Shown here: positions 31,814-53,331 of the stretch, one piece after another
Layout of the letters: each line of letters starts with the position of its first letter
Numbering within the stretch: the stretch's first letter is position 1
Origin: Pseudidiomarina taiwanensis
GTDB taxonomy: Bacteria > Pseudomonadota > Gammaproteobacteria > Enterobacterales > Alteromonadaceae
DNA: 64,000 bases
Assembly (NCBI RefSeq): GCF_003987435.1
Contig: NZ_PIQG01000004.1
Location: forward strand, 124,001-188,000
Direction: 5' to 3'
Made by a program: the position numbers and the translations under genes
The notes under the pieces: model-generated
The model's input: the letters and a program-made list of their open reading frames with translations, nothing else
The model's database searches: none
Told to the model about the DNA's origin: nothing

Positions 31814-31907
31814 TAGTTGATCCTTAATTTATTGTTAGACACACTTAAAAACTAAAGCAGCACGACTGCTTTAGTTTGCCTACATCGCTCAGTTCACAAG
31901 GGCATTA

Positions 31908-32444
31908 TTACCGACAAGTGGTTTGTTCTAATCGACGGTTTGGTAAGTGGCAATTACTCAGATCAATGGCGTCAAGAACACCATCAGTCTTCGTTCTATT
32001 TTTAAGTAAGTATGATATCCAACCAGAGTCGTTTATTGCTCGCACATCAATATTTCTATAACCGAATTGCGTTGACGTCCAATACTCTTGGATTAAAACA
32101 GTAAATTCGTCTAGGGATAGGTGCTGTGGTTTTTCAAGTATTAAGTGAGCATGAAAACGAGTGAGTTCATCATGTTCAAATACAGGAACTGAAATTAGTC
32201 GATGATTGAATCGTCGAAACCGCTTACCAAGGATACGTTGATTCAATATGTTCAAAAAATGACGTAAATTCTGCTCCGCCTTTTCGCGGTCTAATCTAAC
32301 GAATGCAGCGCCAGCAGATTCACTGATTTTAATACCTTGTTTGAAGGTTAATGTCACAGCGACTAAGTCTTGTTGATGAGCGGTTAGACTCTCATTTAAC
32401 CAGTTAAAAACTTCGGTTTTGAGGTTAACCGTATCGATATTCAT
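31908..32444 (-). CDS. HUH endonuclease-like replication protein
   Basis: The 178-residue protein shows the three rolling-circle Rep motifs in order: motif I VAVTLTF at about residues 28-34, motif II FHAHLIL with the metal-binding HxH at residues 98-100, and motif III YLLK (YxxK) with the candidate nucleophilic tyrosine at 145. Such proteins nick one strand at a hairpin-associated origin and start rolling-circle replication or transfer. No helicase domain is present. A perfect 11-bp hairpin and direct repeats lie immediately upstream (32451-32565). A relaxase or transposase role is possible; motifs fit a Rep best. Confidence 0.65.
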   Translation of the reverse strand: MNIDTVNLKTEVFNWLNESLTAHQQDLVAVTLTFKQGIKISESAGAAFVRLDREKAEQNLRHFLNILNQRILGKRFRRFNHRLISVPVFEHDELTRFHAHLILEKPQHLSLDEFTVLIQEYWTSTQFGYRNIDVRAINDSGWISYLLKNRTKTDGVLDAIDLSNCHLPNRRLEQTTCR

Positions 32445-32450
32445 GATGCA

Positions 32451-32483
32451 TAAATACTCCTTTTTGGTGTTCAGGAGTATTTA
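32451..32483. repeat. Perfect 11-bp inverted repeat upstream of the HUH gene
   Basis: TAAATACTCCT (32451-32461) and AGGAGTATTTA (32473-32483) are perfect inverted repeats around the 11-nt loop TTTTGGTGTTC. It begins 7 bp upstream of the HUH protein start codon. In rolling-circle replicons a Rep-gene-proximal hairpin is the usual double-strand origin; it could instead be an autorepressor operator or a translational control hairpin. Confidence 0.65.
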
Positions 32484-32512
32484 TAAGACTTAGATCACGA
32501 AAATTGCGATGC

Positions 32513-32565
32513 TATACAACTTTTTGCGTTTTTATATACAACTTTTTCCGGCGCTTTTCCGGTGC
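32513..32565. repeat. Iteron-like direct repeats near the HUH gene
   Basis: TATACAACTTTTT occurs at 32513-32525 and 32535-32547, two helical turns apart (22 bp). TTTTCCGGCGC (32544-32554) is directly followed by TTTTCCGGTGC (32555-32565). Phased direct repeats beside a Rep-like gene resemble Rep-binding sites or operators. Confidence 0.55.
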
Positions 32566-32656
32566 ATTTCGGCGTCAATACAAAGGTGGAATATTTCACC
32601 TATTAGAAGTATGTGAAGGTCGATTTGGTAAAGGGTATATTTGACGTGTTTGTTGA

Positions 32657-33253
32657 CTAGTCAACTCTTCTACCTTCGCCTAACCATTCCCAGAACTCTT
32701 CGGGCATCATTTCTTCAACCATCTTTAGACTGCGAGTGTTGACGGTTGAATGACAACCTATTAATGGAACAATTAAAAACTTATCAGGAACAATCCAGTC
32801 AACTCTTAGATAACGTTTTCCTGTTCTCCTTGACTCTTCAAGTAATCTTACTTTTCCATGTCCAGATAACATCATGGTTTCGCCAAATTTCTCACGTTTC
32901 TTAGTAACGATAATATCCCCCACTTGAATATCATAAAACCGTTTCATTTGAACTGGGTCTGATACCCAGTCAAACTCACAAATACCATCTGCATACCACA
33001 ATTCATCTTGTCTATTTTCTAATGTTGCACCGGGACAGAATCCCATAAACACGTATTCTTGTTGTAGTGGAGGAACTTCGATTGATTTGTATGCGTAAAT
33101 TATTCGTTTTGCTCTTTCAACGTCGATATTTTTTTTTAATCTCTTCGTTGCATTGTCATAAACTTGCTTCCTATCTGTTCGACTAAACTCACCCTTCACC
33201 ATTTTCTGTATTATGGGGTCTGGATCATTAATAAGATCATCATAATCAATCAT
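32657..33253 (-). CDS. Unknown protein encoded in the type I restriction operon
   Basis: The 198-residue protein overlaps the hsdR stop by 8 bp and must be translated with the restriction genes. Its C-terminal half has a beta-rich stretch ([19 protein letters not shown], then [11 protein letters not shown] and [12 protein letters not shown]) reminiscent of small PUA/EVE-like barrels, ending in [12 protein letters not shown]. The N-terminal half is helical and basic. I do not recognise a family. Position suggests a modulator of HsdR or a companion nucleic-acid-binding factor (inference). Confidence 0.7.
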
Positions 33254-36200
33254 ACAAAACGTCCTCTGAAATCACTTCTGCTTGTCTAAGAACAGTCTCA
33301 ATAGCATATTTTTGTTGGTCTGGCGGATATTTGTATTTTTTGAGTAGTGTTCTAATGATTATTCTCAACCTTGCTCTAACACTATCCTTTACTGCCCAGT
33401 CTACAGTTAAGTTTGCTCTTAATTTTTTCGAGACTTCACGTGCCATCTCGACTAACACTTCTTCGCCCATTAACTCTGATGCTGAATCATTTTGAGCAAG
33501 AGCATCGTAAAATGCTTCTTCTTCAACACTCAAGTTATGACGTTCTCGCCTCAATAAATCTTCTTGAAACTGTTTTGCCATCGCAATCAGTTCTTCTATG
33601 ACTTGTGCTGCTTCGACTGCTCTGTTGGCATATTTGCCAAGTGATTTTTCTAGTAACTCACTAAATTTATGTTGTTTGACAACATTAGTCTTAAACTTGG
33701 TTTTCACCTCTTCCTTGATAAGTCGTTGAAGTAGTTCCACCGCAAGGTTCTTATGAGGCATCTTCATAACTTCTCTGAGAAAGTCATCAGAAAGGATAGA
33801 GATATCGGGTGACTCTAGACCTGCAAGTTTGAATACGTCCGCCACACCCTCGCCTACGACTGCCTGTGAGACCAATTGACGCAGTTCGTAATCAACATTC
33901 TTCTTCGGTCTGTCTGGATTACCACCTTTGATCAGCGGTGCACGAATCGCTTGATGGAAGGCGACTTCCGGAGAGAGTTCAAGTGCTTCGTCTAACGTCC
34001 CACAGAGTGCGAATGCCTTGGTCATCTGCAGAACGGTATCGGCATATCTACGCTTACCGTCTTCTTGTTCAAGCACGTGATCTAGACACTCAGGAATTAG
34101 TTGCAGTGCTTTCGTTCTAAACTCACTCCAATCCAAGGGATGTAAAAGGTCTCGTGCAACCTGAATCTTCTCCTTGAGTATTCGTAGCGCCTCACTGGAA
34201 TCGATTGTGGGTCTACCTTTCCCTTGTGCGGCACTGTAGGTAGCAAGTGCTTCCTTGAGTTGCGGTGCGATACCGATGTAATCGACCACCAATCCGCCGG
34301 GTTTGTCCTTGAAGACACGATTCACTCTAGCGATTGCTTGAGCAAGGTTTGCGCCCTGCATCGGTTTGTCGATGTACATAGTGGCGAGACAAGGTGCATC
34401 GAACCCCGTTAACCACATGTCCCTGACGATGACGATCTTCAACGGGTCTTCTGGATCTTTGAACCGTTTCTCTAGGTCTTTCTTCTGTGCTTTGTTGGTG
34501 TGATGGGGTTGGAGATACGCCTTGTCTGATGCTGATGCAGTCATCACCACCTTGATGGCACCTGACATGTGGTCATCTGAGTGCCACTCAGGTCGAATCT
34601 CAACAATCTTGTCGTACAGACGAACACAGATGTCCCGTGACATCGTGACGATCATCGCTTTACCCAACTGGGTTTCGTTGCGTTTTTCGTAGTGGGTGAT
34701 TAGGTCTTCGGCAACCTCTTGAAGACGGGCATCGGTACCGACAATCGCCTCTAGCGCAGACCACTGACTTTTCGCTTTTTCCTTCTCTCGTTCGTCTGCA
34801 GTCTCATCATCAAGGATGGTCTCTACTTCCTCATCCACATTGGGAAGAACTGACTGATCTAGGTTTATCTTGGCGAGACGAGACTCGTAATAGATCGGGA
34901 CAGTCGCACCGTCTTCCACTGCTTGCTGTATGTCATAAACCGAAACGTATTCACCAAAGACTGCTTGTGTGTCCCTGTCGTCCTGAGAGATAGGTGTTCC
35001 GGTAAATGCTAGGAAGGTAGCGTTAGGTAGACCATCTCTGAGTGATTTGGCGAGACCGTACTTGATGGTTCCACTCTCACTGTCGATCTTTGCCTTGAAC
35101 CCGTACTGAGTCCGATGCGCTTCGTCTGCAATTACCACGATGTTGTGGCGATCTGTCAGTACAGGGAACTTGTCCTCGTCTGCATCCAGTCCGAACTTCT
35201 GAATGGTGGTGAAGATGATTCCGCCCGAGGGACGGTTCATCAGATGTTCTCTTAACTCAGCACGAGAATTTGCTTGCTTCGGTGTCTCACCTAGAAGATC
35301 GCCTGCACCCGCAAAGACGCCAAACAACTGACCATCTAGGTCTTGTCTGTCGGTCACCATTACTAGGGTAGGGTTCTCAAGGCGAGGTTCAGCGATCAGG
35401 CGACCTGCCAGACACGCCATTTCGATAGATTTACCTGCCCCTTGCGTGTGCCATACCACCCCGCCTTTCTTCGTGCCTGAGACGCCTGAGGCGTTCACAA
35501 CACTCTCTACCGCTGCTTGCACTGCATGGAACTGGTGGTAACCCGCAATCTTCTTTATGACGGTCTTATCGTCCTCAAAGATGCAGAAGTAGCGCAGGTA
35601 ACTGAGGAAGACCTCTTTGTTAAACAGTCCCTTGATCAGTGTCTCCAGTTCACGGTGCTGACCCAATGGGTCTACCTCTACTCCATCAATTGTTCTCCAC
35701 CGCATGAACCGTTCTTCATTGGCAGACAGCGACCCCAGACGTGCATAGATACCGTCTGAGATGACCAGACAGGTGTTGTAGTTGAAGAGGTCTGGGATGT
35801 CGTTCTTGTAGGTCTGTAACTGGTTGTATGCTGCCCAGATGTCTGCGTGTTCATCAGCGGCATTCTTGAGTTCGATCACGGACAACGGAAGACCGTTGAG
35901 GAAGACCAACACATCAGGTCTACGGTTCTGTTTTTGACCGTGGATAGTGAACTGATTCACCACCAACCAATCGTTGTTCTCAGGGTTTTCAAAGTCGATG
36001 ACCACTAGTTGCTTGCCAACGGTCTCGTTACCTTCCTGATAGGTGACCTTTACCCCCTTGGTTAACCACGAATGCACCTGACGATTGCACGACATGAGAG
36101 CAGGGATGTTGGGGTTCATCAGTTGAGATAGCGCAGTTTCTATCGCTGACTTAGGAATATCTGGATTCATGCGGGTCAGCGCAGAGAGGAGTCGATCTTT

Positions 36201-36341
36201 GAGAACTACAGATCGGTAATCCGTGCGCTCCGGTGTCTCACCATCAACCGCAATGTCATATCCACAGACATACTGGTAACCGAGGTCTTTAAACCAATCG
36301 ATACTTTGTAGTTCGACCTGATCTTCGGTTACCAACGCCAT
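33246..36341 (-). CDS. hsdR: Type I restriction enzyme, R subunit
   Basis: The 1031-residue protein has an N-terminal nuclease domain with [19 protein letters not shown], matching the PD-(D/E)xK core, then superfamily II motor motifs HTQGAGKS (Walker A), [12 protein letters not shown] (DEAH box) and FTGTPI (motif III), and a helical C-terminal region that docks on the methyltransferase. It translocates DNA and cleaves away from unmethylated sites. It is intact. Gene order on the minus strand is hsdM-hsdS-hsdR followed by an unknown gene, with starts and stops overlapping. Confidence 0.95.
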
Positions 36342-37504
36342 TAGATACCCGCCTCTTCAAGAAACTTCTCTGCGTCAGGGATGCGGAGTTCACCGGAGAT
36401 GAGTTTGGGCAGGAGTGTGTCTCTCAGTTCAGCGAGGACTTCAATCTCCGCATTTGCAGTGGATTGGCGATTTTTGATCAGGTCAAAAAGTCCTTTGTAC
36501 TCTTGCAAGAGACTGTCCGAGGGTGCGACCAAATTTAGATTTTTGATGTCCTTGCCGGTCACCAGTGGTTGTGTTGATCCAACATTAAGAGCGGTCAGAT
36601 CAACTGACTGCAGAACGTAGAAGACCAGCGGTGAGTAGACACCCGCATCGCAAATGAGGATTGAGTTATCTGAAACCCAACAATCGTCTGTTAGATAGAA
36701 AACTTTCCCGAGTGTTCCCACCCTGCCAGTGATGATCGCCGGTTTGGTGAAGTTAAGCGGTTCACTACAGAATGCCATCGGTCCGGCACCGCCATAAACG
36801 GCATATTGGCATGTCTCACTTTGGACGCTTTCCTTTTCCGGTGGTCTTTTACCACTGGTAACCTTGGCAACATCTTCAATGGTTTTTACTTCCCACCCTT
36901 TCGGAATCTCCCCTATCTCTGAATCCACCAACTCATCAGGAAACAGATCACTGATTTCAGGGGGAAGACCTATGGGGCGACCCTTTGCCTTCGCTCGCAC
37001 AGGGTCAAAATCCACAAACCATGATTTGAAGATTGCCTTGGCGATCTCCTCGAGGGTTTGATTCATCTTTTGGTTGAGTTCGATCTTATCGTCTAGGGTG
37101 CCAAGGATGTGGGCGATTGCTTTTTGGTCAGCAAAACTTCGTTCGGGTACCTCAAGGGATTTAAGACTTGTTTGATTGATCAGGGGTTGTCCTGAACCAC
37201 CTCTCAACGAATGCAAATCCCTCGTCAACAATAAGTAGTAACAGTAGCGAGCATCAGCACCAGTCTTTGCAGTGCCTTTGATTGCATTATCAGTAACCCA
37301 ACATTGTTCTGGACTGTAATGCACCGAACCACAGTAAGACCCGACACGACCTATGATTATTGTTCCAGCGGGATTATTGAATTCATCGCAGTGACCAATA
37401 ACTCCGTTGGAACCAAACACATTGAAGGTTCCACCTCCTTCATCGGCAGGGCGCTTCTTCCCGTTTCCAAAGTTAAGGTAAGTGTCAACAGGAACTAAGC
37501 GCAC
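36341..37504 (-). CDS. hsdS: Type I restriction enzyme, specificity subunit
   Basis: The 387-residue protein has two target-recognition domains. The first contains [17 protein letters not shown] and the second [16 protein letters not shown], each followed by a conserved helical spacer ([20 protein letters not shown] and [13 protein letters not shown]). The spacers set the distance between the two half-sites; recognised bases cannot be read from sequence. The GTG start shares a base with the hsdM stop. The N-terminus is slightly shorter than many HsdS proteins but starts just before the first domain. Confidence 0.93.
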
Positions 37505-39051
37505 TACACATCCTCAAACATAGATAGGTTTGAAACAATCTCTTGGTCTAACTTCGAAGACGCATCCTGCAGAGCATGCAGTGACTCAGATAATTTTTTA
37601 ATCTTTTGCGTAAACGCCTCTGTGTCCATCGATGTTTCTTCTGCTCCTACATACCTACCGGGCGTCAGAATAAAACTATTCTTTTCAATCTCTTCCAGAG
37701 ACGCTGACTTACAGAATCCTGCTACGTCCTCGTAATCTTCCCCCGTCTTCCACGATTGCACGGTCTCTTGAATCCTTGCAATGTCCTCATCGGTAAACAC
37801 CTTGAGAACACGGGTTTCCATGGTTCCCAACTGACGGGCATCAATGAAGAGAGTCTCGCCTCTGCGGTCTCTTCCGTTCATGGTCTTGTCGTTTGTGAGG
37901 AACCACAGACACACAGGAATTTGCGTGTTCAAGAACAACTGACCGGGCAGTGCGACCATGACCTCAACTACGTCCCCTCGCACCATTGCTTCTCTTATCT
38001 GACCTTCACCACCGGTGTTAGAACTCATCGAACCGTTAGCGAGGACAACCCCTGCCTGACCGCCCGGGCGCAACTTCCACAACATGTGCTGTAACCATGC
38101 GTAGTTCGCATTACCTATTGGGGGTCTGCCGAACTGCCAACGAGGGTCACTCTCGTATTTCTCGCCACCCCAGTCAGAGATGTTGAAGGGTGGATTCGCC
38201 ATGATGTAGTCGAACTTCACATCCGGAAACTGGTCACGGGCAAAGGTATCTGCAGGTTCTTTACCCAAGTCAGCGGCAAAACCACGAATCGCTAGGTTCA
38301 TCGCCGCTAACCGCCATGTGGTGGGGTTACTTTCTTGTCCATATATAGAAATGTCATCCACACGACCACCGTGCGCTTTTACAAATTCCTCACTTTGAAC
38401 GAACATTCCGCCTGAACCACAACATGGATCGTACACTCGTCCAGAGTGAGGCGAGAGCACTGCGACTAGAGTTTTTACAACATGGGAAGGCGTGTAGAAC
38501 TGTCCACCTTTTTTACCTTCGGCAGATGCGAATTGACCCAAGAAGTATTCATAAACTTCACCAAGTAAGTCTGAAGAGTCGTATTTATCAGCAAAACCAA
38601 TCGTAGAAATGAGGTCGATTAATTCACCCAAAACGCCCTGTCCCAATTGTGCCCGACCAAAACGTTTGTCCAACTTTCCACGTAACGAGGGGTTCTCGTT
38701 TTCAATCGCGGTCATGGCACCATCAATTAGAGAACCTATGTCAGGTTGTTTTGCCTTTGACCGCAATGTTTCCCATCGCGCCTGTTGAGGAACCCAGAAA
38801 ACGTTATCTTGCGTGTAATAATCACGCTCTTCGAGTTCTTCAGCATATTCAGTGGGGTCTTCACTTATAAAGTAGTCGGAGGATGGATCGCTCAGCGTTT
38901 TCTCGACTTTATCCTGCTGTTTTACGAACGTGTCTGAAATGTACTTGAGGAAAATCAAACCCAGAACGATGTGCTTGTACTCAGCAGCATCCATTTGTGC
39001 CCTGAGTTTATCTGCTGCTTTCCATAGCGTTTGCTTAAAGTCTTTTGACAT
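37504..39051 (-). CDS. hsdM: Type I restriction enzyme, methyltransferase subunit
   Basis: The 515-residue protein starts with the HsdM helical domain (WKAADKLRAQMDAAEYKHIV), has the SAM-binding motif DPCCGSGGMF at about residue 200 and the catalytic NPPF motif (IMANPPFNISDWGG) at about residue 280, as for N6-adenine methylation. It acts as an M2S1 complex with HsdS. It is the first gene of the restriction operon; the 139-bp gap to the divergent recombinase must contain both promoters. Confidence 0.95.
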   Translation of the reverse strand: MSKDFKQTLWKAADKLRAQMDAAEYKHIVLGLIFLKYISDTFVKQQDKVEKTLSDPSSDYFISEDPTEYAEELEERDYYTQDNVFWVPQQARWETLRSKAKQPDIGSLIDGAMTAIENENPSLRGKLDKRFGRAQLGQGVLGELIDLISTIGFADKYDSSDLLGEVYEYFLGQFASAEGKKGGQFYTPSHVVKTLVAVLSPHSGRVYDPCCGSGGMFVQSEEFVKAHGGRVDDISIYGQESNPTTWRLAAMNLAIRGFAADLGKEPADTFARDQFPDVKFDYIMANPPFNISDWGGEKYESDPRWQFGRPPIGNANYAWLQHMLWKLRPGGQAGVVLANGSMSSNTGGEGQIREAMVRGDVVEVMVALPGQLFLNTQIPVCLWFLTNDKTMNGRDRRGETLFIDARQLGTMETRVLKVFTDEDIARIQETVQSWKTGEDYEDVAGFCKSASLEEIEKNSFILTPGRYVGAEETSMDTEAFTQKIKKLSESLHALQDASSKLDQEIVSNLSMFEDV

Positions 39052-39190
39052 TACTCATTACTCTATCCAAATGATTTTACAATTTATCAAACTATTTTAG
39101 GAATTCCTACTGGGTGTTTGTTGTAGACTGATTTTTATCTGGCGAAATCTATACCATTTAACTTTCTGAGAGTTGCTTTATACTATCCTA

Positions 39191-40831
39191 ATGAAAAATA
39201 CCCTGCATATTTACACTCGCGTTTCCACAACCTCTCAGGAAGAGGAAGGCACATCATTAGAAACTCAACTGGAGTTCGGAATTAAGTGCGCGCAAAAATT
39301 GGGTGTGGACTACAAGGTTTGGAACGAAGGCGCACGTTCATCTTCCAAAGATGATTTGAGTAATAGACCTGTTCTTAGTGAATTGCTACAGCAAGTTGAT
39401 GAAGGCATTGTTCAGCACCTTTATGTGTGGAATACCGATCGCCTGTCGAGAAACATCAATACTTGGGGAATGATCCGATTTAAGTTGATAGAGAATGAAG
39501 TTACTCTTCACACTCCAACCGGCAAGCAGATTTTATCAGACCCACAAACCAATTTGATGCTGGGGATTTTAAGCGAAATCTCTCAGTATGATAACCAGTT
39601 GAGAATGGAGCGGTTTCGTCTCGGCAAATTAAAGCGTATTCGTCAAGGGAACTGGATGGGTGGACCGCCCCCTTATGGTTACATGATTGAAAATCACAAA
39701 CTCATACCGAATGAAGATGAACGCCTATGGGTAAAGTTTATCTATGAAAATTACCGAGATGGAGCATCGATTGACGAGATAAGAACAAAATTACTTCAAA
39801 ATGGCGTTGAAACGCGTCGGGGTAATGCCGTTTGGTCCCATGGGTCAATCGATAAATTACTGACTAACACGCACTATGAGGGGTATTACAATTACACCGA
39901 CAAAAAATCTGGTGAGACGATACGAGTTTTATGCCCCAGTCTACTTGAAGCACCATTGGTTAAGGCGGTTCGTGAGTTACGCGAAAAACGTTCTTATGGG
40001 AAGTTAGGAAACAAAAGAGCAAAAACAAGTAATCAGAAATATACATACTTACTTTCGGGACTTTTGTATTGCGGTCATTGTGGTGCGCGTTATGGCGGCA
40101 ACTATAAGACGAAACAGACGTCATATTACTCCTGTCTTCAAAAAACCAATAAATTCAAAACGAAGTTCACAGATCGCCATGTAATTTGCGGTTCAAATAG
40201 AAACATTAGAATTGATAGAACTGATGAGGTTGTATGGGAAACTGTCGTATCAGTTCTTTCCAATTCACATCAATTTAAAGAAGACATAAAAACTCAAGTT
40301 TTAGGGCAAAGATCGCACAAAAAGTCATCGTTAGAACTGAAAAAAATTGAGGTCAGAAAGAAAAAACTTCAAAAGGAATTGAAAGACGTAGTTGAAGCAA
40401 TCGTAAATTTTGAAAGTTTAGTTTTGCTCGGCAAAAGGAATAAAACAGAAACCGCAGGAATCATCAAAAGACTAGAACAACACCGTCTTGACCTAGAGGC
40501 AGAACTTAAAGAAATCGCCCAATCGTCAATCGAAGAACAAAAACAAAAGCAGTGGGCGGACTGGGTGAAGGAATTTGCCAAACAAATTGATAAATTTAGA
40601 GACCCTAATTTCTCGCTAGAAGATCGCAAAAAATTACTAGAGGGAATAGTCAGTAAAATAGTTGTGACTAACAACGACTTACGAGAGCACGAATTACTGA
40701 TCGAGTTTAGGTTACCATATGTTGATGATAGATTCGTGTATACGGACCCAATGGATAAATCGAAGGGATACACTATAAAAAAAGGTCGAGTAACCAAAAG
40801 ATTGCGAGCGAACTTATTAAAAAAATCATAG
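39191..40831 (+). CDS. Large serine recombinase (island integrase)
   Basis: The 546-residue protein has the resolvase catalytic domain with YTRVSTTSQ (serine 12), DRLSRN and the recombinase domain GGPPPYGYM followed by an HTH-like GASIDEIRTKLLQNGVETRRG. A zinc ribbon follows (LYCGHCGARYGGNY to CLQK and HVICG), then a long Lys/Glu-rich coiled coil typical of integrase directionality control. ATG 39191 is preferred to an upstream TTG at 39173. The gene ends 25 bp before the attP arm. Its last codons are TTA AAA AAA TCA TAG, a run of seven As in the phase of a -1 slippery heptamer. Confidence 0.92.
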   Translation: MKNTLHIYTRVSTTSQEEEGTSLETQLEFGIKCAQKLGVDYKVWNEGARSSSKDDLSNRPVLSELLQQVDEGIVQHLYVWNTDRLSRNINTWGMIRFKLIENEVTLHTPTGKQILSDPQTNLMLGILSEISQYDNQLRMERFRLGKLKRIRQGNWMGGPPPYGYMIENHKLIPNEDERLWVKFIYENYRDGASIDEIRTKLLQNGVETRRGNAVWSHGSIDKLLTNTHYEGYYNYTDKKSGETIRVLCPSLLEAPLVKAVRELREKRSYGKLGNKRAKTSNQKYTYLLSGLLYCGHCGARYGGNYKTKQTSYYSCLQKTNKFKTKFTDRHVICGSNRNIRIDRTDEVVWETVVSVLSNSHQFKEDIKTQVLGQRSHKKSSLELKKIEVRKKKLQKELKDVVEAIVNFESLVLLGKRNKTETAGIIKRLEQHRLDLEAELKEIAQSSIEEQKQKQWADWVKEFAKQIDKFRDPNFSLEDRKKLLEGIVSKIVVTNNDLREHELLIEFRLPYVDDRFVYTDPMDKSKGYTIKKGRVTKRLRANLLKKS

Positions 40832-40855
40832 GGTTAAAGCAAAACCAATCCAATT

Positions 40856-40901
40856 ATATAGCGAAATTTACTCCAAAACAGTGGAATAATCTGTAGTGGC
40901 A
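40856..40901 (+). other. attR of the island with the native glmS 3' end
   Basis: The island arm ATATAGCGAAAT (40856-40867) is followed by the crossover dinucleotide AC (40878-40879) and then AGTGGAATAA, which in the restored gene encodes the end of glmS (T V E stop, TAA 40887-40889). Only the AC and GTGGAATA core is shared with attL, as expected for a serine integrase. The 25 bases after TAA lead to the Tn7-like end at 40915. Confidence 0.72.
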
Positions 40902-40914
40902 GACTAAACCCGAA

Positions 40915-41000
40915 TGTGAATTAGGAATAAAGTCGATGACTCAGGAATAAAGTCGGTGACTTAGGAATAAAGTTAGTGACTTAGGAATAAAGTCGGTGAC
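40915..41000 (+). mobile_element. Right end of a Tn7-like transposon with four TnsB-type sites
   Basis: The end begins TGTGAA at 40915, and four tandem 20-bp repeats follow at 40921-40940, 40941-40960, 40961-40980 and 40981-41000. Their common form is TTAGGAATAAAGTCGGTGAC, with one to three differences per copy. Tn7 ends start with TGT and the right end carries four TnsB sites, so this matches. tnsA lies just inside. A 5-bp duplication candidate CCGAA (40910-40914) cannot be checked because the left end is outside the window. Palindromes at 40991-41005 and 41001-41015 adjoin the repeats. Confidence 0.85.
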
Positions 41001-41295: not shown

Positions 41296-42105
41296 ATGAC
41301 TTCAAAACACTCCGCAAATCTTCTCGACAAATACAATCTTTGGTCAGCGCAATCTGAAGCTAGTTATGAACCTTGGTTGAAAGTTCACGATGTGTCATCC
41401 AAAGGTGTATCTTCTATTGTTCTTGGTCGAACAACCGGTAGAAATCATCATTTTCTTTCATTGATTGAACTATCAGCGTTCCTCTTACTTGATTGGAATG
41501 AGGACGTAATTGATATAAAAGAGCAGTTTGCTCTGGATCCCATACAATCGAATCTTCTTGCTGACGAAACAGGCATCAAGCACCCCGCAGTACGAGGTAA
41601 ATTGATTGTCATGACAACCGATTTATTGATCAAGTTGCGTAAGCAGAGCATGTTGATCGCTATTCAAATCAAACCGAGTGAACAACTTGACGACCCGCGA
41701 GTTATTGAGAAACTCGAACTTGAAAGACGCTATTGGGCGAGAAAAAAAGTTACCTTCCTTATATTAACTGAGAAGGATATTCCCAAGTCTGTTGTTGAAA
41801 ACGTTCAATGGTTACAACCGATGTTAGCTGAGTCACTAACCACTTCGGAACTTGAACACAAGTTACAGCTATACAGGCATATCGCTACCCAATGCTTGGT
41901 AACAATGCCTATAAGAATGCTTTCACAACAAATTGATACTGCATATGACTTGCCTATGGGGGAATCCCTGAAAGATCTTCGGAAGCTCGTTGCACACAGA
42001 TATATCAGCGTAGATCTTGCACATCCATTCTATGAATTGACGGTAAAAGACATTTTAGATGGCAGTGACACATCGCGAGGACAAGTGTATGCAATTACTC
42101 GTTAA
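41296..42105 (+). CDS. tnsA: Tn7-like transposase subunit TnsA (endonuclease)
   Basis: The 269-residue protein aligns by eye with Tn7 TnsA (273 residues) throughout: GRTTGRNHHFLSLIELSAFL, IKEQFALDP, GIKHPAVRG and KLELERRYWARKK. The restriction-enzyme-like catalytic residues are present as Glu58, Asp109 (MTTD) and Lys126 (IQIK), corresponding to Tn7 Glu63, Asp114 and Lys132. TnsA cuts the 5' ends of the element. The gene is intact and overlaps tnsB by 17 bp. With tnsB broken it is presumably inactive in transposition. Confidence 0.92.
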   Translation: MTSKHSANLLDKYNLWSAQSEASYEPWLKVHDVSSKGVSSIVLGRTTGRNHHFLSLIELSAFLLLDWNEDVIDIKEQFALDPIQSNLLADETGIKHPAVRGKLIVMTTDLLIKLRKQSMLIAIQIKPSEQLDDPRVIEKLELERRYWARKKVTFLILTEKDIPKSVVENVQWLQPMLAESLTTSELEHKLQLYRHIATQCLVTMPIRMLSQQIDTAYDLPMGESLKDLRKLVAHRYISVDLAHPFYELTVKDILDGSDTSRGQVYAITR

Positions 42106-42739
42106 CGAAGTATTCAGATTTCAAGGCAGATCACTGCGGGTGCTTCATACGGCTGATGGTGTTGCTACCTGCATTGATATAGACCTTGATAAGAAAAGTT
42201 TTCCTTTCAGGATTATGTATTCACAAATCGAAGAGGCTTTTTTTGATGAGACTGCAATGAGAATAAAAGACCCTTTTCTTCTGGGGCTGCATGGTATTAA
42301 AGAAGAACATATTAAGGTTGCGAGAAACCGATATGAAAATATCGAGCCCTTACTTGGTGAAGAAGGCCTGTTTTACAAAAGTGAACGTTTTAAAATTATT
42401 GAACGTTGCTCAGAACAGACAGGCATCCATAAGCATAGTCTGTATAAATGGCTTATATTGTACTGGCAGCGAGGAATGTCTTTGTATGCGTTGCTACCTA
42501 ATTTTCAACATTGTGGCGGGAAAGGGAAACCCAGAGAAACGAGCGTTAAGAAAGGTAGAACGAGGAAAAATGCTCCTGGACAAGCCCCCGTCGTGACGGA
42601 TGAAATAAAGCGCATTTTTCGGCGAGTAACTGATAAGTACATACTGACTAACAAGAAATATACACTAGCCTATGCGGCCCGAAGAGTTCAATCAATTTTT
42701 CTACAGTTGAACCCCAACACTCCAGAAGAAGAGCTGCCT
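42089..42739 (+). pseudogene. tnsB: Tn7-like transposase TnsB, truncated by an IS element
   Basis: The remaining 217 codons begin MQLLVNEVFRFQGRSLRVLH and match the N-terminal DNA-binding half of TnsB (KHSLYKWLILYWQRGMSLYA is an HTH; then IKRIFRRVTDKYIL and NPNTPEEELP). The whole RNase H-like DDE core is missing, because the IS3-family element interrupts after codon CCT. On the far side of the IS only about 20 codons stay open before a stop and they do not carry the core, so the rest of tnsB and tnsC onward have been deleted. Confidence 0.9.
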
Positions 42740-42810
42740 TGTAATCCCCCCGAAAAATCGGAGCAGTTATAAGTAGAAAATTCCGTTAAACTAAAACGAA
42801 GGAGTTTTCT

Positions 42811-43077
42811 ATGCGCAAATCACGATACACAGACAGTCAGATCTTAGCGATTCTGAAACAAAACGAGAACGGTGTACCCGTTCCGGAGCTTTGCCGTGAA
42901 CACGGCATGAGCTCGGCTCAATTTTATAAATGGCGCGCCAAGTTTGGCGGCATGGACGCATCCATGATGAAACGCCTTAAAGAGCTTGAAGATGAGAATA
43001 AACGCCTCAAGAAAATGTATGCCGAAGAGCGACTCAAGGCTGAGATCCGCAAGGAAGCCCTTGAGGGAAAGCTGTAA
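42811..43077 (+). CDS. IS3-family transposase OrfA
   Basis: The 88-residue protein has an HTH ([20 protein letters not shown] then [20 protein letters not shown]) and a leucine-zipper-like tail ([20 protein letters not shown]). It binds the IS ends. Its end GAG GGA AAG CTG TAA contains G GGA AAG (43065-43071) in the phase of a -1 slippery heptamer, which would fuse it to OrfB. Confidence 0.95.
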
Positions 43078-43097
43078 AGCCATCTCAGCGCAAAGAG

Positions 43098-43898
43098 ATG
43101 GCGCAAGCTGCCATTCAACGTCATGGTATTAGCGTTCGTTTTGCCTGTGTTTGTATGGGTATTAGCGAGAGCTGTTACCACTACCAAAGCAAACTCAGCG
43201 ATGAAAACGCTGTGATTGCTGACTGGTTGCTGCGCTTAACCACCGCGCACAAGCGCTGGGGTTTTGGTTTATGCTTTTTGCACTTGCGTAACGTGAAAGG
43301 GTTTCCATGGAACCACAAACGCGTGTATCGCATTTACCGAGAGCTAGAGCTGAACTTACGAATTAAACCTAAGCGTCGCCTGCGACGCGACAAACCGGAC
43401 GCTTTAAGCGTACCAACAGCAATGAATCAAGTTTGGTCAATGGATTTTATGTCCGACAGCTTGGCTGATGGGCGTCTACTTCGAACATTTAACGTTATTG
43501 ATGATTACAACCGCGAAGGGTTAACCATTGAAGTTGATTTATCATTGCCAAGTGCTCGCGTTATTCGTGCATTAGAGCAAGTCATTGAATGGCGAGGAAA
43601 ACCTGCGGCGATTCGCTGCGACAATGGCCCAGAATATTTGTCAAGCGAGCTGATTAACTGGGCTGAAAAACATCAAATTACGATGCTCTACATTCAACCA
43701 GGTAAACCGACTCAGAATGCCTATGTTGAACGATTTAATCGAACAGTTCGTCATGAATGGCTCGATTTACACCTGTTCGATAGCGTTGAGCATGCACAAG
43801 AACTTGCCACTCAGTGGCTTTGGCTTTATAACAACGAGCGGCCTAACACCGCCATCGGAGGCATTCCGCCCAAACAATTAACGCAAGCGGTTCATTAA
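43098..43898 (+). CDS. IS3-family transposase OrfB (DDE integrase)
   Basis: The reading frame from ATG 43098 encodes 266 residues with the DDE triad as Asp116 (WSMDFMSD), Asp175 (CDNGPEYL) and Glu211 ([14 protein letters not shown]), the last two in D35E spacing. The frame is open from 43065 and is -1 relative to orfA, so the active enzyme is probably the OrfAB frameshift product. It appears intact. Confidence 0.95.
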
Positions 43899-43953
43899 TT
43901 CTACGAATAACTGCTGCTTAAAATGGGGGGATTACACCTGCGTGTATAAAAAT

Positions 43954-43982: not shown

Positions 43983-44459
43983 ATGCAGCCCCTTTTTAAC
44001 TCACTGGAACCTCAAGTTCTCTTCCAGGAAGTGCCTGATGAAGTGTCACTCGGTTTTACGATAACCGGTTGTAAACTGCGTTGTGAACGCTGCCATAGCC
44101 AAGATATCTGGGACAGCAATTTGGGAGCGCCGCTTACCAATGAACTGTTTGCTACTTACTTAGATAAATATGAGGGTTTCATAACGTGCGTGCTCTTTTT
44201 TGGTGGTGAATGGCATGCAGAGGCGCTAAGAGAAAAACTCCTTATAGCTAGGCAAACCCAGCTGAAGACCTGTCTCTACACCGGACTCCCTAGAGTATCT
44301 CCAAAAATCCAAGAGTTATTGTCATTCCTGAAAACCGGTAAGTGGGTATTTTCACTTGGCGGACTCGACTCTCCGTCGACCAATCAAAAACTAATAAACG
44401 TCTATACAGGCGAATCACTAAACCACAAATTTTGGGAGAATACGTGTGCTAACACTTGA
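43983..44459 (+). CDS. nrdG: Anaerobic ribonucleotide reductase activating enzyme NrdG
   Basis: The 158-residue protein is a radical SAM enzyme with the CxxxCxxC cluster in GCKLRCERCHSQD (about residues 30-42) and FFGGEWHAEAL, the short activase glycine motif. It generates the glycyl radical of NrdD. It overlaps nrdD by 14 bp. The order nrdG-nrdD is reversed from E. coli. The IS right end is only 46 bp upstream, so transcription may now start within or beyond the IS. Confidence 0.9.
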   Translation: MQPLFNSLEPQVLFQEVPDEVSLGFTITGCKLRCERCHSQDIWDSNLGAPLTNELFATYLDKYEGFITCVLFFGGEWHAEALREKLLIARQTQLKTCLYTGLPRVSPKIQELLSFLKTGKWVFSLGGLDSPSTNQKLINVYTGESLNHKFWENTCANT

Positions 44460-46230
44460 TGATAAACATATAAAACAAAAACTGCAGTTTATCGATAGTT
44501 ATTTAAATGCTGAAACAGCTGCTGATGGCGCGAAGTTGGACGCTAACGCGAATGTGACAAACAAAAACATTGCCACACTCGAAGCAGAACTAATGAAAGA
44601 CTATTTTATTCAGGTAAACCGAGCACTGGTGAGTAATAAGATTAAGGAACTGTTTGGTCAAGAACTAGCCCTTGAGTACCAGCGGCAAATCGAGTCACAT
44701 GAGATCTATGTGCATGATGAAACCAGCCTAAAGCCATATTGCACCTCAATAACAATGTACCCATTTCTCCTAAATGGGTTGACTGAACTTGGTGGTGAAT
44801 CCAGAGCTCCTCAACACATAGAGTCTTTCTGCGGTAGTTTTGTTAACTTGGTTTTTGCTATCAGCGCGCAATTTGCAGGTGCCATCGCCACTGTCGAGTT
44901 CTTGATTTACTTCGATCATTTTGCGCGTCGAGATTATGGTGAAAATTATCTCAGTACACATGCCAAAGAAGTAGCAAACCATCTACAGCATGTAGTTTAT
45001 GCGCTCAACCAACCTGCGGCTGCGCGCGGCTACCAGAGCGTGTTTTGGAACATATCGCTGTATGACAAATTCTACTTTGACTCGATGTTTGGTGAGTTTG
45101 TATTTCCTGACATGAGCAAACCCGAATGGAAGAATATTGAATCGCTTCAGGCTTTTTTTCTGGATTGGTTTAACAATGAACGTAAGCGGGCAGTACTCAC
45201 GTTCCCTGTGGTGACAGCGGCAATGCTGACAAAGAACGGGGCAGTCAAAGATGTCAATTTCGCAGCGACATGCGCTAAAGCGATGAGTGAAGGTAACTCA
45301 TTTTTTGTTTACCAATCTGAGAGTGCCGATTCATTAGCCTCTTGTTGCCGATTGCGCAACGAGATCACCGACAATACGTTTTCATATAGCTTAGGTGCAG
45401 GCGGCGTATCGACAGGCTCCATTAATGTCATCACCATAAATATGAACCGATTAATTCAGGATGGCAGAGATTTAAGCAGTGAAGTTCAGAAGATACACAA
45501 GTATCAAGTCGCTTATCGTCGACTCATCGAGGAGTATAAAGCAGCTGGAGCATTGCCTGTTTATGACGCAGGCTTCATTAGCCTGGATAAGCAATTTTTA
45601 ACGCTGGGAGTCAACGGACTAGCAGAAGCTGCTGAGTTTTTAGGTATTGAAGTCGGTAATAATCGGAAATACAAAGATTTTGTTAGGGCGCAATTGCAAG
45701 TCATTTACGAACAAAACCGGACTGCATCAAAGCATTTCAACTGTCAGTTCAATACTGAATTTGTGCCTGCTGAAAACTTAGGCGTCAAAAACGCCAAATG
45801 GGATAAACAAGATGGATACGTTGTTAACAGAGACTGCTACAACAGTTATCTGTATCTTGTAGAGAATACGAGTACCACCCATATTGACAAGTTTATCCTG
45901 CATGGCAAGGAACTAAATCAATACCTTGATGGTGGTTCAGCACTTCACCTCAATCTTGAGGAAACATTAACCTATAAAAACGCATTAAATCTTCTAAATA
46001 TCGCGGCGAAAGCAGGTTGTAACTATTTTTGCGTTAACGTAAAAATTACGATCTGCAATACCTGTGAAACTATTGATAAACGCACTTTACCTGCTTGTCC
46101 ATCGTGTGGCTCTGAAGATATCGATCATGGAACTCGCGTAATTGGATACTTAAAACGTGTCTCTGCTTTTTCTAAAGGTCGGAGGAATGAGCATGCCCTT
46201 CGACACTACCACACTCACACTCGGGGTTAG
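44446..46230 (+). CDS. nrdD: Anaerobic ribonucleoside-triphosphate reductase NrdD
   Basis: The 594-residue protein has the class III core with CNYFCVNVKITICNTC, a C-terminal zinc site (CNTC and CPSC pairs) and the glycyl-radical motif RVIGYLKRVSAF near the C-terminus. It lacks the N-terminal ATP-cone present in E. coli NrdD (712 residues), which fits its shorter length. It reduces ribonucleotides without oxygen. GTG 44446 is the start within the nrdG overlap. Confidence 0.9.
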   Translation: MLTLDDKHIKQKLQFIDSYLNAETAADGAKLDANANVTNKNIATLEAELMKDYFIQVNRALVSNKIKELFGQELALEYQRQIESHEIYVHDETSLKPYCTSITMYPFLLNGLTELGGESRAPQHIESFCGSFVNLVFAISAQFAGAIATVEFLIYFDHFARRDYGENYLSTHAKEVANHLQHVVYALNQPAAARGYQSVFWNISLYDKFYFDSMFGEFVFPDMSKPEWKNIESLQAFFLDWFNNERKRAVLTFPVVTAAMLTKNGAVKDVNFAATCAKAMSEGNSFFVYQSESADSLASCCRLRNEITDNTFSYSLGAGGVSTGSINVITINMNRLIQDGRDLSSEVQKIHKYQVAYRRLIEEYKAAGALPVYDAGFISLDKQFLTLGVNGLAEAAEFLGIEVGNNRKYKDFVRAQLQVIYEQNRTASKHFNCQFNTEFVPAENLGVKNAKWDKQDGYVVNRDCYNSYLYLVENTSTTHIDKFILHGKELNQYLDGGSALHLNLEETLTYKNALNLLNIAAKAGCNYFCVNVKITICNTCETIDKRTLPACPSCGSEDIDHGTRVIGYLKRVSAFSKGRRNEHALRHYHTHTRG

Positions 46231-46253
46231 AAGTAAGCTGGTGTAGTGTTTTT

Positions 46254-46283
46254 TACCTAATAAGGGGTAGTTCAATACCCCTT
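46254..46283. promoter_or_regulatory. NarL-type 7-2-7 site overlapping a hairpin
   Basis: TACCTAA-TA-AGGGGTA (46254-46269) fits the NarL/NarP inverted heptamer arrangement TACYYMT-N2-AKRRGTA with one mismatch. The second half overlaps a perfect hairpin AAGGGGTA GTTCAA TACCCCTT (46262-46283). There is no T tract after it on the plus strand. It may act as a NarL operator for the gene at 46352, as a weak nrdD transcript end, or both. Confidence 0.5.
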
Positions 46284-46351
46284 GTGCACAATGGTATTGA
46301 GGGAAAACGATGTGTACGCTTAAGTTAGCAATTTCTTAGGAACCTTTTGTT

Positions 46352-46744
46352 ATGTCTGGTATGTTTTCCGACCTTCTATCTAAAGCACAAGAGCAAAGCG
46401 AAAAGCAGCGTTTGTTATTCTTGTTCGCAAAAACTGACGAGACAAATAAAAGCAAAAAACGAGAGGATAAAAAGGGTTCTATTGAGCCTAAAATGGTAGT
46501 TGATAAATTGCCAGATGAGTTATCTGAATTTTCTGCTTTAGTGAAGGAAGCGGACAGCATAAATAAGGATTGGGATTTTGTGTTTATCGCCAGCCTTGGG
46601 GGGGATGCAAACACTCCTCCCACTACAGAGGCTGCAGAACCCTATCTAAACAAAATGACTAACGATGTGATGACAGGTAACAATATTTTTCGCTACGTGG
46701 TGTTTGACAGGAACGAAAACCCGATAGAAATCACTGCCAATTAG
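46352..46744 (+). CDS. Small conserved protein often misnamed ribonucleotide reductase subunit alpha
   Basis: The 130-residue soluble protein begins MSGMFSDLLSKAQEQSEKQR, then LLFLFAKTD, has a middle DKLPDELSEFSALVKEADSI and VFIASLGGD, and ends FDRNENPIEI. It resembles a small proteobacterial family that databases label with this nrd-like name though it lacks any reductase motif. Its position after nrdGD and before a nitroreductase-like gene suggests a role in anaerobic metabolism. Identification is from memory of that family. Confidence 0.55.
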   Translation: MSGMFSDLLSKAQEQSEKQRLLFLFAKTDETNKSKKREDKKGSIEPKMVVDKLPDELSEFSALVKEADSINKDWDFVFIASLGGDANTPPTTEAAEPYLNKMTNDVMTGNNIFRYVVFDRNENPIEITAN

Positions 46745-46804
46745 TAAAAGGGAAAACCTAGCTCCTACGAGCTATACTTTTAACTATTCTGACGGCTAAA
46801 ACCC

Positions 46805-47821
46805 ATGGTCGCTAACGTACGAGAAATTAAAGATGGCTTGTTCCCATTTAATGGTGACGAGCTACATCAGCTCACGTTTTTATTGAATTATGCGATCCTG
46901 GCTCCATCTCATTATAACGCCCAACCTTGGCGCTTCCGGCTATCCGACAGCGGATTGGATATTATTCTAGACAAACATAGAGTGTCCCGGTTTGTCGACC
47001 CTCATTCTCGCGAGGCAATTATCAGTTGTGGCGCAGCGATAGGCATGATCGAAGTTGCTGCTCACTATTTTGGCTCTTCGGTCAACATAAATTATGAAAA
47101 TACGACTGACAGAGACTTGCTGGCGCATATCAACCTAACTGGAACCTACGATCCGATTGAAAATGACATTGCATGGTTTCATGCTATCAAACACAGGCAA
47201 ACGAACCGTAAGTATTTTGATGATACTGAACCACCCAACCAAGCAATCGAAAGTGTTCAGGGCTACGCTAATGCTCTTGATGTACAACTGTCACTAGCAA
47301 GAGATATCGGCGCGATTGTCAAGTTTTCAGATTTGGTCGAAAGAGCAGTGAAGCGTCAGTTTGCTAGGCCCTGGTTTCGATTTGAGTTCACTTCTTGGCA
47401 GCGGTCTATGCTGAGCTTAAAACCAGATGGATTAACTGGGCATGGTTTTTATCATACTTCATTGCCAAATCTATTGTCTAAACCGATGTTGAACTGGTTC
47501 AATTGGGGCAGCAGCATTGGCAAGTACAACGTCGATAAGTGCCGTCACGGAAGTCCGACGTTTGCAGTGATTGCCACCGCCAATGATAATAGAACCGACT
47601 GGTTGAATACCGGCCGAATATTAACGATTTTCTTGCTTGAGCTTGCCCATCAAGGCTTGTCCGTGTCTTACATCAATCAAGCGATTCAGGAGAAAGACCT
47701 CAGAAAACAGCTTCCACCGATTTTTCAATCAATGCTATATCCACAACTTATACTGAGAGTAGGTAAAGCATCACCAGTGCAGTTTACGCCTCGGCGATCT
47801 GTTGAGCAAACACTGCTGTGA
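46805..47821 (+). CDS. Acg-like nitroreductase family protein
   Basis: The 338-residue protein has the nitroreductase-type entry motif NYAILAPSHYNAQPWRF (about residues 29-45), HAIKHRQTNRKYF (about 129-141) and a duplicated second half, resembling the Acg/Rv2032-like group. In nitrate-respiring bacteria such genes sit beside nar and universal stress genes. FMN binding and nitro/quinone reduction are inferred from the family. It stands alone on the plus strand and converges with the hemerythrin gene (13 bp). Confidence 0.7.
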   Translation: MVANVREIKDGLFPFNGDELHQLTFLLNYAILAPSHYNAQPWRFRLSDSGLDIILDKHRVSRFVDPHSREAIISCGAAIGMIEVAAHYFGSSVNINYENTTDRDLLAHINLTGTYDPIENDIAWFHAIKHRQTNRKYFDDTEPPNQAIESVQGYANALDVQLSLARDIGAIVKFSDLVERAVKRQFARPWFRFEFTSWQRSMLSLKPDGLTGHGFYHTSLPNLLSKPMLNWFNWGSSIGKYNVDKCRHGSPTFAVIATANDNRTDWLNTGRILTIFLLELAHQGLSVSYINQAIQEKDLRKQLPPIFQSMLYPQLILRVGKASPVQFTPRRSVEQTLL

Positions 47822-47834
47822 GAGTATGGCCTAC

Positions 47835-48275
47835 TTACATTTCCAAAAATAGCGTAAGCAACTGTTCATCAGTTAGTGACCGGTCACATTGAACGTAAAG
47901 CACTTGTTCCTCTTTTTCGTTGTGCAGCAGAAGCAGTTCTAACAGGGCATTTTCCAGTGCTTCTGAATGGTCGTCATTTTTTAAGCCTTCACCAATTTCC
48001 TCCAGTATTGCTTCAATTTGATCGTGCTCTTGGCGCATCACCATTGTTGGGCCAGCACCTTTTAAACCGTTGGCTTTTTCAAACATGGGAAACAGCAATT
48101 CTTCTTCCCAGCGAATGTGTCGTTTTAACCCTTCACTAAACTTATCGAACAGCAAGACAGCCTTGTAGCGCTGGTTTTGTTTGTTTTCCCGGTACATGCG
48201 AAACAGAAAATCAAGTCGTTCGTGATCAACACTAAAAAATTGGGTTACCAGATTTTGCATTACTGTCGACTCCAT
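47835..48275 (-). CDS. Hemerythrin-like di-iron protein
   Basis: From ATG 48275 the product has 146 residues in a four-helix bundle with the hemerythrin His/Glu spacing: VDHERLDFLF, HIRWEEELLFPMFE, RQEHDQIEAI and LLLHNEKEEQVLYVQ. These bind O2, NO or repair iron-sulfur centres. AGGATAACTGCT precedes the ATG; an upstream start at 48353 would overlap the kinase gene. It is directly downstream of the phosphatase/kinase gene (5 bp). Confidence 0.8.
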   Translation of the reverse strand: MESTVMQNLVTQFFSVDHERLDFLFRMYRENKQNQRYKAVLLFDKFSEGLKRHIRWEEELLFPMFEKANGLKGAGPTMVMRQEHDQIEAILEEIGEGLKNDDHSEALENALLELLLLHNEKEEQVLYVQCDRSLTDEQLLTLFLEM

Positions 48276-48280
48276 AGCAG

Positions 48281-50041
48281 TTATCCTGTGGTCGAAAACA
48301 AAATGACAACCAGTATCAGCATGGCAACCCAAAAGGCCGACATCATCTGCCAAAAAAGCAAACCTTTGCTGTTATCGATTGCGGGATCATCTTTTAAAAA
48401 TTCGGGGTTAGGCCGAGTGACATCATCGACAAAGTCTTGTAGACGTTTGTAACGTTTTGGTATGTCAAGCGTCACACCTTTTTCCAATGCACGGTCAAAC
48501 CATAACGGAATGATGGGGTTGTGGTCAGTGGCGCTAATATACCGAAGCTTGTCAAAGTCATGGCTATTCACGTATTGCTCTATCTTTTCGCCATAGGGCA
48601 GTTCGCCGGTAAACAATTCGTAGGTGATAGTGGCTAGCGCATAAATGTCGCCTTGAATGCCTGTATTTCTGCCTTGTAAGTAATAAGGGTCAGAATAGGT
48701 AGCCGTACCCAGTGCGCCAAGATGCTCAATGGGGATAAAAATCTCAGCGATACCTGCGACAAAGACAGATCCAAAATCAATCACCTTAATCTTCATTGCA
48801 TCATCAACAATAATGTTGGCGGGTTTAAGATCCTGGTGAATCGTTTCTGTGTTATGAAAAGCTTTAAGCGCAGCAGCGATTTGTTTGACTAACGTGATAG
48901 CCTTCTTGGGAGAGGGTAACGGGTGGTCGATCATCCATTTATCAAGTGAAATACCTGGAACATACTCCATCAGGTAATACAAACAGGTTCTTGGTCGATT
49001 CTGGGTTATGATCTTAACCACATATTCGCTGTTTATACGTTTCCCTATCCACTCTTCCTGAATAAAGCGGTCAATGTAATGCACGTCATCCTGAAAGTTG
49101 AGCGACGGCGTTTTCATCACCATTTGCTCATCAGTTTCCAAGTCAGTGACGAGATAAACCTGACTGCGACTGCTGGCAAACAAAGCCTGATCAATTCGGT
49201 AACCATCCAGTTTCATTCCGGGTTCAAGATCGGGAGGGAACGGCAGTCGAGTTAATTTGGTATTAAAATCATCACGACTTTCAGCGGGCAGTTTTTCGAC
49301 TTTAGCAATCGCGCAGCTGATATTATCGTCGCTGTTGGCCATTTTGGCTTCAGCCACTATGCGCTCACACTGTTTCTGAGGTTCGCGTTTTTCACTCAGG
49401 AACTCAGTCAGTTTCTCCTCATCGATAAAATCGTGAACCCCGTCAGTTGTCAGAAGAAAAACATCTCCTTCTTCTAAAACCGATTTCCCGTAATCAACTT
49501 GTAAGACGTTGTCCATTCCCACGGCTCTGGCGAGAATGTTTTTGCCACCACCGATGTTGATTGAATGATCACGCGTCAATTGCGTGATAGCACCCTCCCG
49601 ATAGCGGTAGATCCTGGAATCGCCGGCGTGGAAGAAGTGGGCGGTTCTCGATTTGAGCACAAGACCACTAAATGTGCATAGATAGCCTTTTTCCTGGTGA
49701 GTGAACTCGTGACTTTGCTTGAATAGGTTTAAATTAATCGTAGTTAGTGTTTTTTGGCCTGCTTGTTTCGCTGACCACGTATCAGGCGTGCGGAAATATT
49801 CTTCGATAAAATGTTTTACCGCGTAGTCACTAGCCTCTCTGCCCGCTTCAGCACTGCTAACACCGTCAGCAATGACAACGGCTGTGCCCTTTGATGACAA
49901 GGCGTGTCGGTCAGTCGGAGTATGCACAGCGACGGCATCTTCGTTGACCGGCTTAACGCCTGCAACTGAAGCACAACCCGTAGCCACAACAAGCGTTGCG
50001 TCGTTTGTGATGTTGTCTTTTTCAGTGTGCTCTGATTGCAT
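48281..50041 (-). CDS. Fused PP2C phosphatase / Ser-Thr protein kinase with C-terminal membrane anchor
   Basis: The 586-residue protein has an N-terminal PP2C-type domain (ADGVSSAEAGREAS, FHAGDSRIYRY, TTDGVHDF at about residues 58-210) and a C-terminal kinase domain with MVMKTP (lysine), HQDLKPANIIVDD (catalytic loop with HQD in place of HRD) and VIDFGSV (DFG). One hydrophobic segment at the end (FWVAMLILVVILFSTTG) anchors it to the membrane. A combined phosphatase and kinase on one chain beside NarK genes is known in some nitrate loci. Targets are unknown. Confidence 0.85.
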   Translation of the reverse strand: MQSEHTEKDNITNDATLVVATGCASVAGVKPVNEDAVAVHTPTDRHALSSKGTAVVIADGVSSAEAGREASDYAVKHFIEEYFRTPDTWSAKQAGQKTLTTINLNLFKQSHEFTHQEKGYLCTFSGLVLKSRTAHFFHAGDSRIYRYREGAITQLTRDHSINIGGGKNILARAVGMDNVLQVDYGKSVLEEGDVFLLTTDGVHDFIDEEKLTEFLSEKREPQKQCERIVAEAKMANSDDNISCAIAKVEKLPAESRDDFNTKLTRLPFPPDLEPGMKLDGYRIDQALFASSRSQVYLVTDLETDEQMVMKTPSLNFQDDVHYIDRFIQEEWIGKRINSEYVVKIITQNRPRTCLYYLMEYVPGISLDKWMIDHPLPSPKKAITLVKQIAAALKAFHNTETIHQDLKPANIIVDDAMKIKVIDFGSVFVAGIAEIFIPIEHLGALGTATYSDPYYLQGRNTGIQGDIYALATITYELFTGELPYGEKIEQYVNSHDFDKLRYISATDHNPIIPLWFDRALEKGVTLDIPKRYKRLQDFVDDVTRPNPEFLKDDPAIDNSKGLLFWQMMSAFWVAMLILVVILFSTTG

Positions 50042-50061
50042 TGAATTAGTCTAAGTTAGTG

Positions 50062-50095: not shown

Positions 50096-50108
50096 TGACG
50101 CATTATTA

Positions 50109-53326: not shown

Positions 53327-53331
53327 CAGGC

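Follow-up and report, generated by a model that had tools for sequence, protein, structure and literature searches.

A degraded Tn7-like element with unequal flanks behind glmS of Pseudidiomarina taiwanensis points to two joining events at one attTn7 site

Results

Layout of the locus behind glmS

The DNA under study is a stretch of 64,000 nucleotides (G000:C5:124001-188000; hereafter the window), beyond which the contig runs on for 55.7 kb. Behind glmS lie an island with a large serine recombinase gene, a displaced tail of the native glmS gene, the terminus of an insertion sequence (IS), and the right end of a Tn7-like element with tnsA, a truncated tnsB, a second IS and cargo genes that continue past the window (Table 1). 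Among the cargo genes, nrdG, nrdD and narH scored above the cut-off of a family model, and the remaining names were assigned by reading the open reading frames (ORFs).

Table 1 Features of the glmS locus. Plain numbers are positions in the window; those headed L062 lie outside it.
Feature	Position	Strand	Basis or remark
glmS	26426..28258	+	last codons and stop GGTGGAATAG probably from the island's attP half
AC crossover dinucleotide, glmS side (putative)	28247..28248		centre of attP dyad
Serine-recombinase island, 12.6 kb	28249..40879		attP dyad centre; Pfam
Type I restriction-modification genes hsdR, hsdS, hsdM	33246-39051	-	in island
Large serine recombinase of island	39188..40831	+	Pfam Resolvase, Recombinase, Zn_ribbon_recom
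AC crossover dinucleotide, right side of island (putative)	40878..40879		centre of attP dyad
Displaced native glmS tail AGTGGAATAA	40880..40889	+	
First 23 bp of IS3-type element	40892..40914	+	starts 2 bp past native glmS stop
Right end of Tn7-like element	40915..41000	+	TGTG and four TnsB-type sites, 20-bp spacing
tnsA	41296..42105	+	Pfam TnsA N and C domains; points away from glmS
tnsB, N-terminal 217 codons only, cut at IS	42089..42739	+	match to TnsB-like ORF in G024
Second IS3-type IS, different from spacer IS	42740..43936	+	
Cargo in window	43983..64000		nrdG, nrdD, narK-like transporters, NnrS-like protein, moeB, moaABCE, mobA, moeA, narL
Cargo beyond window	L062, up to left end		modABC, narX, narGHJI
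Left end of Tn7-like element	L062:15959-16095		
Integron integrase (intI)	L062:16080-17060	-	beside left end

A Tn7-type right end lies 25 bp past the native glmS stop

The initial annotation had placed the native glmS stop exactly 25 bp before a Tn7-like right end made of TGTGAA and four 20-bp TnsB-type repeats, and this observation is confirmed. Read directly, 40881-40889 spells GTGGAATAA and ends in the native stop, TAA (40887-40889); with the island left out, 25 bases (40890-40914) separate this stop from TGTGAATTAGG at 40915, where the element begins TGTGAATTAGGAATAAAGTCGATGAC, with TGTGAA as its terminus. Four 26-bp TnsB-type sites start at 40915, 40935, 40955 and 40975. In the 119.7 kb of contig examined, the pattern AGGAATAAAGTC, allowing up to one mismatch, occurs on the plus strand only at these four sites, and on the minus strand at two of the three left-end sites described below and at one other place. 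One right end was located in the whole genome. As also claimed, the right end is the one nearest glmS, and tnsA points away from that gene; its product matches the Tn7 TnsA structures 1f1z and 1t0f (E = 1.1e-48). The best long TnsA matches have no more than ~41-45% identity, and genome_contigs contains no close relatives. A right end that faces glmS from ~25 bp downstream of its stop has the position that marks an attTn7 insertion; for Tn7 itself, the accessible part of one study puts insertion ~20 bp past the stop (PMC2918618).

The left end adjoins an integron integrase gene

A left end had been expected further to the right, together with a second copy of the 5-bp sequence CCGAA that precedes the right end. 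The left end is there, outside the window and 39.2 kb from the right end, which gives an element of ~39.2 kb (40915 in the window to L062:16095); the CCGAA duplication was looked for at that end and is absent, with CTGAT in its place. Three inverted sites of the same type as those of the right end lie there, with distances of 0, 66 and 111 bp between terminus and site start; the middle site carries 4 mismatches, and the outermost finishes ...CCACA at L062:16095. A genome search for left ends found no other. Both ends thus share one TnsB-like site type, four adjoining copies on the right and three spaced copies on the left, and the element has the clustered repeats in opposite orientation at its two ends and the TGT terminus of Tn7-like transposons.

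Immediately outside the left end, CTGAT is followed by the 3’ end of an integron integrase gene, whose product scores above the cut-off of family TIGR02249. The left end replaces the last intI codons, so that SNQ (as in G014) becomes SVARE. Full-length glmS was present in 23 of 25 genus siblings (all except G001 and G016), and counts of sibling glmS loci therefore refer to 23. In five of them (G012, G013, G014, G015 and G020) intI lies directly behind glmS; its alignment is complete in G013 and G014 and broken by internal gaps in G012, G015 and G020. The left flank aligns from exactly +21 after the glmS stop in all five (51-56 of 60 bases; next best offset 21/60). Because duplication of +21 to +25 on insertion gives the observed left junction, the left end, too, stands in the 25-bp register. 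The intI DNA is ~86-90% identical to the aligned parts of the sibling copies and glmS merely 72-77%; intI may have moved between species.

The DNA beside the right end is an IS terminus

The 5-bp flanks of the element are unequal, CCGAA at the right end and CTGAT at the left, as opposed to the identical duplication at both ends that marks an attTn7 insertion; the accessible part of the literature gives 5 bp as the length of Tn7 target duplications (PMC2918618). Since the flanks differ, we do not class the element as one simple insertion. A left end with a different duplication is, taken literally, what the initial annotation had named as a refutation, and its picture of a single clean insertion with a CCGAA duplication is not supported. 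The flanks are unequal because 23 of the 25 bp next to the right end (40892-40914) are the terminus of an IS, rather than the ordinary glmS-downstream DNA for which this spacer had been taken; the last 5 bp of that terminus, CCGAA at 40910-40914, provide the target bases of the right end.

When 395 family genomes were searched for the 25 bases that adjoin the right end, allowing as many as 3 mismatches, 27 matched, G000 included, several of them with multiple copies; the reversed control pattern gave one match among those shown. Among the matches listed, the first two bases vary in most rows, and the constant part, TGTAGTGGCAGACTAAACCCGAA, is the IS terminus (23/23 bases). Complete copies of this IS measure 1241 and 1256 bp. 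The copy on contig C1 of G000 differs by one mismatch in the 23 bp, and HTH_Tnp_1 and rve domains occur in the transposase pair that it encodes; we class the IS as IS3-type. Behind glmS, the 25-mer is absent from all 23 siblings, the matches within the genus sitting on contigs other than that of glmS, and the rest of the IS is absent beside the left end. At a distance of 25 bp from the native stop, the right end thus joined an IS that began 2 bp past this stop.

The element is degraded and carries nitrate-respiration genes

The tnsB remnant is 33% identical (72/218) to residues 19-234 of a 707-aa TnsB-like ORF beside tnsA in G024. Another copy of the second IS, at L062:8113-9309, splits narG and is flanked by 4-bp duplications (CTTA). 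Around the tnsB copy no such duplication is present, the two sides sharing just CCT, in keeping with loss of the remainder of the operon at the IS. The tnsC- and tnsD-sized ORFs of two elements in relatives, G053 and G031, match nothing in the 119.7 kb of contig, in which the tnsA and tnsB of the same elements do find matches; whole-genome searches with the Tn7_TnsC_Int and TniQ families were empty, but their controls were silent too, and we do not take them as evidence of absence. With tnsA intact, tnsB cut and no tnsC match in the 119.7 kb, the tnsABC operon is incomplete, and we therefore class the Tn7-like element as a remnant. The element looks immobile.

The cargo forms an anaerobic set of nrdDG, nar genes, and molybdenum cofactor and transport genes. 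Nine of the 25 siblings also have NarH, at 80-81% identity (E up to 1e-80), and in all eight of those with a located glmS it is on a different contig from that gene.

Comparison elements in relatives

Four elements with tnsA beside glmS were examined, in G024, G031, G039 and G053. They lie 25 bp (G024, G039) or 24 bp (G053, G031) behind glmS and encode a TnsA homologous to the one described here, a homologous TnsB being seen among relatives’ elements as well; their repeat sequences differ from ours, and the elements of G031 and G053 retain tnsC- and tnsD-sized ORFs. Flanks were sought in G021, G031, G039 and G053. CAGAT stands at both ends in G053 (5/5 match), no matching flanks were found in G021 or G031, and G039 has a suggestive flank only, TGATA near an inverted repeat cluster with an exact left terminus that is undefined. 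About 4.9 kb behind glmS in G039 (L114), a TGATA copy occurs with more TnsB-like repeats, which suggests two Tn7-like elements or remnants in a row. TGTG with repeat-like motifs follows the glmS stop at 25 bp in G010 (L023) and G021 (L025) and at 24 bp in G022 (L024). These three genomes have no TnsA match and were excluded as tnsA-bearing comparisons; the sites are possible remnant ends.

A serine-recombinase island separates glmS from its native tail

The island boundary had been proposed beforehand and is supported by the attP dyad. This dyad is centred on AC, with symmetry at 15 of its 20 arm positions against 10 for the next best centre, and the recombinase would cross over at this dinucleotide. 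Together with the three domains of the protein, the dyad with its central non-palindromic dinucleotide marks the island as a large serine recombinase element. The attP half would supply the codons after AC, so that glmS keeps Thr-Val-Glu-stop. An 8-bp repeat, GTGGAATA (28250-28257 and 40881-40888), was considered as the crossover itself and rejected in favour of the AC dyad centre, because the sites of both G000 and G181 are symmetric about AC, with equal dyad scores.

G181 belongs to another family of the same order; there, too, an island of this kind sits at the end of glmS, with 75% identity across the initial 104 bp and a recombinase 54% identical to that of G000. On the glmS side of the island (region 28249-28700), a short frame extends to about 28574 and by eye resembles its counterpart in G181; a small serine resolvase gene follows it, in opposite orientations in the two genomes. 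To the right of the G181 recombinase gene, L073:2836-2900 shows both attP-like arms, as if a similar island had once stood there and left them behind, the glmS end having been used repeatedly.

Matches to the recombinase were found in 2 of 294 relatives, self included (E up to 1e-40), and in 1 of 369 genomes of the class sample, self only (E up to 1e-60). Among plasmids, 193 of 72,556 records match, with 22-26% identity in the ten matches listed; genome_contigs and viral_contigs contained no close relatives. The best NCBIfam profile is CcrB, the recombinase of SCC elements, at a score of 91.6 against a cut-off of 900, so that we do not class the protein as Ccr; its target here is glmS. SCC enters the 3’ end of its target gene and leaves that gene intact, and the present island does likewise. 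No description of a large serine recombinase island that targets glmS emerged from the accessible open-access literature; BCEGI-1 of Bacillus cereus is placed behind glmS in the accessible part of its description (PMC2359905).

The TnsD footprint in E. coli spans +23 to +58, according to the accessible part of PMC2918618, and by that measure the stretch that a TnsD-type selector needs to place the right end is 40854-40889, of which 40854-40877 is now island DNA. The putative crossover at 40878-40879 lies inside this stretch, and it is therefore hard to see how the right end could have been placed after the island arrived. The order proposed by the initial annotation, Tn7-like insertion before island, is thereby upheld: the right end would predate the island, unless the whole arrangement was imported.

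Discussion

By alignment, each end of the element falls in a TnsD-type register, though against different targets, the left end against glmS-intI and the right end against glmS-IS. The mismatch of the flanks therefore points to two joinings at one attTn7, later fused or re-anchored, rather than to misidentified ends. We consider it probable that the locus holds a degraded Tn7-like transposon of ~39.2 kb at attTn7 that is a hybrid of two insertions and received the serine-recombinase island later. The element, or two copies of it, would have joined attTn7 twice, once at the original glmS-intI site, which left the present left end, and once at a glmS with the IS 2 bp past its stop, which left the right end. 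The present form would have come from homologous recombination of two such insertions, either within a single chromosome or between an imported and a resident allele, and the glmS-targeting island would then have entered between glmS and the right end, an order suggested by the anatomy of the locus. Tn7 target immunity should hinder a second copy in one chromosome, which counts against a hybrid, as does the fact that matching flanks were shown in just one (G053) of the four comparison elements in which they were sought. No strain with either parental insertion appeared among the 23 siblings or in the family search for the 25-mer. A sliding comparison of glmS with the 23 siblings showed no mosaic break and no clear switch to an imported 3’ end; at 72-77% nucleotide identity this test has low power, and window-by-window comparison of glmS cannot separate a hybrid from re-anchoring. 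In the glmS tree, G000 groups with G014, an intI carrier (support 0.958). The open-access literature, as far as its text was accessible, contained no account of hybrid or nested Tn7 junctions of such a kind, with one mention of “tandem Tn7”.

Re-anchoring of one end accounts for both observed junctions exactly, with a single element and in one step, and agrees with the one right end and one left end in the genome and with the missing IS remainder beside the left end. An IS landing 2 bp behind glmS in a glmS-intI insertion would have pushed the right end ~1.25 kb off and re-formed an empty attTn7 inside the IS; the right end alone would then have attacked the new site in cis, with deletion of the intervening DNA, the left end staying where it was. 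Against this stand the lack of a precedent for Tn7 in the accessible open-access literature, the absence of an intermediate strain from our genomes and the self-immunity near the element’s own end, which should oppose such an attack, and we hold this course of events to be unlikely. That Tn7-like elements can re-anchor as a capacity, a freed right end re-attacking a re-formed attTn7 in cis and deleting the intruder, strikes us as a little more doubtful still; if true, it would amount to self-repair of the glmS-proximal position. Chance offers another route, in which one insertion beside intI and an IS behind glmS were followed by an unrelated deletion that began after base 23 of the IS and stopped exactly where the right end starts. 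The terminus of an IS of this type stands alone in at least one other place (G762), but complete copies have the lengths given above, and both the flush end against TGTG and the 25-bp spacing would have to be luck, which makes this explanation very improbable. Hardly credible is the single insertion with a CCGAA duplication in ordinary glmS-downstream DNA: the right end, its spacing and its orientation fit it, but the left flank is CTGAT, the 25 bp are almost entirely IS terminus, 5-mers can match perfectly, as they do in G053, and a second left end would be needed where the genome search found just one. The interpretation first given to the locus is, overall, partly supported.

The element has much in common with Tn7: it lies 25 bp behind glmS with its right end towards that gene, tnsA is the gene closest to this end, and TnsA is homologous to the solved one. 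Tn7 has four adjoining TnsB sites in its right end and three spaced ones in its left, the same layout as here. The element differs from Tn7 in its unequal flanks, its truncated tnsB, a tnsC and tnsD that were not found in 119.7 kb, and its nitrate-respiration cargo. Such cargo (narGHJI) is also carried by a CRISPR-associated Tn7-like transposon of Shewanella sp. C32, described in the accessible part of its report as a type I-F3 CAST (PMC12452197); the site here is attTn7, and no cas genes were noticed on reading the element’s listed ORFs.

What the locus displays is ordinary Tn7 biology with an unusual composite history. Unmatched 5-bp flanks need not mean wrong ends, as each end can be checked separately against empty sites in relatives. 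A glmS-targeting recombinase, known here from two families, restores the gene end that it cuts, and the att site of its island overlaps the TnsD footprint. The locus is thus one of layered competition, among an integron, a Tn7-like element, an IS and a recombinase island, for a single safe site behind an essential gene.
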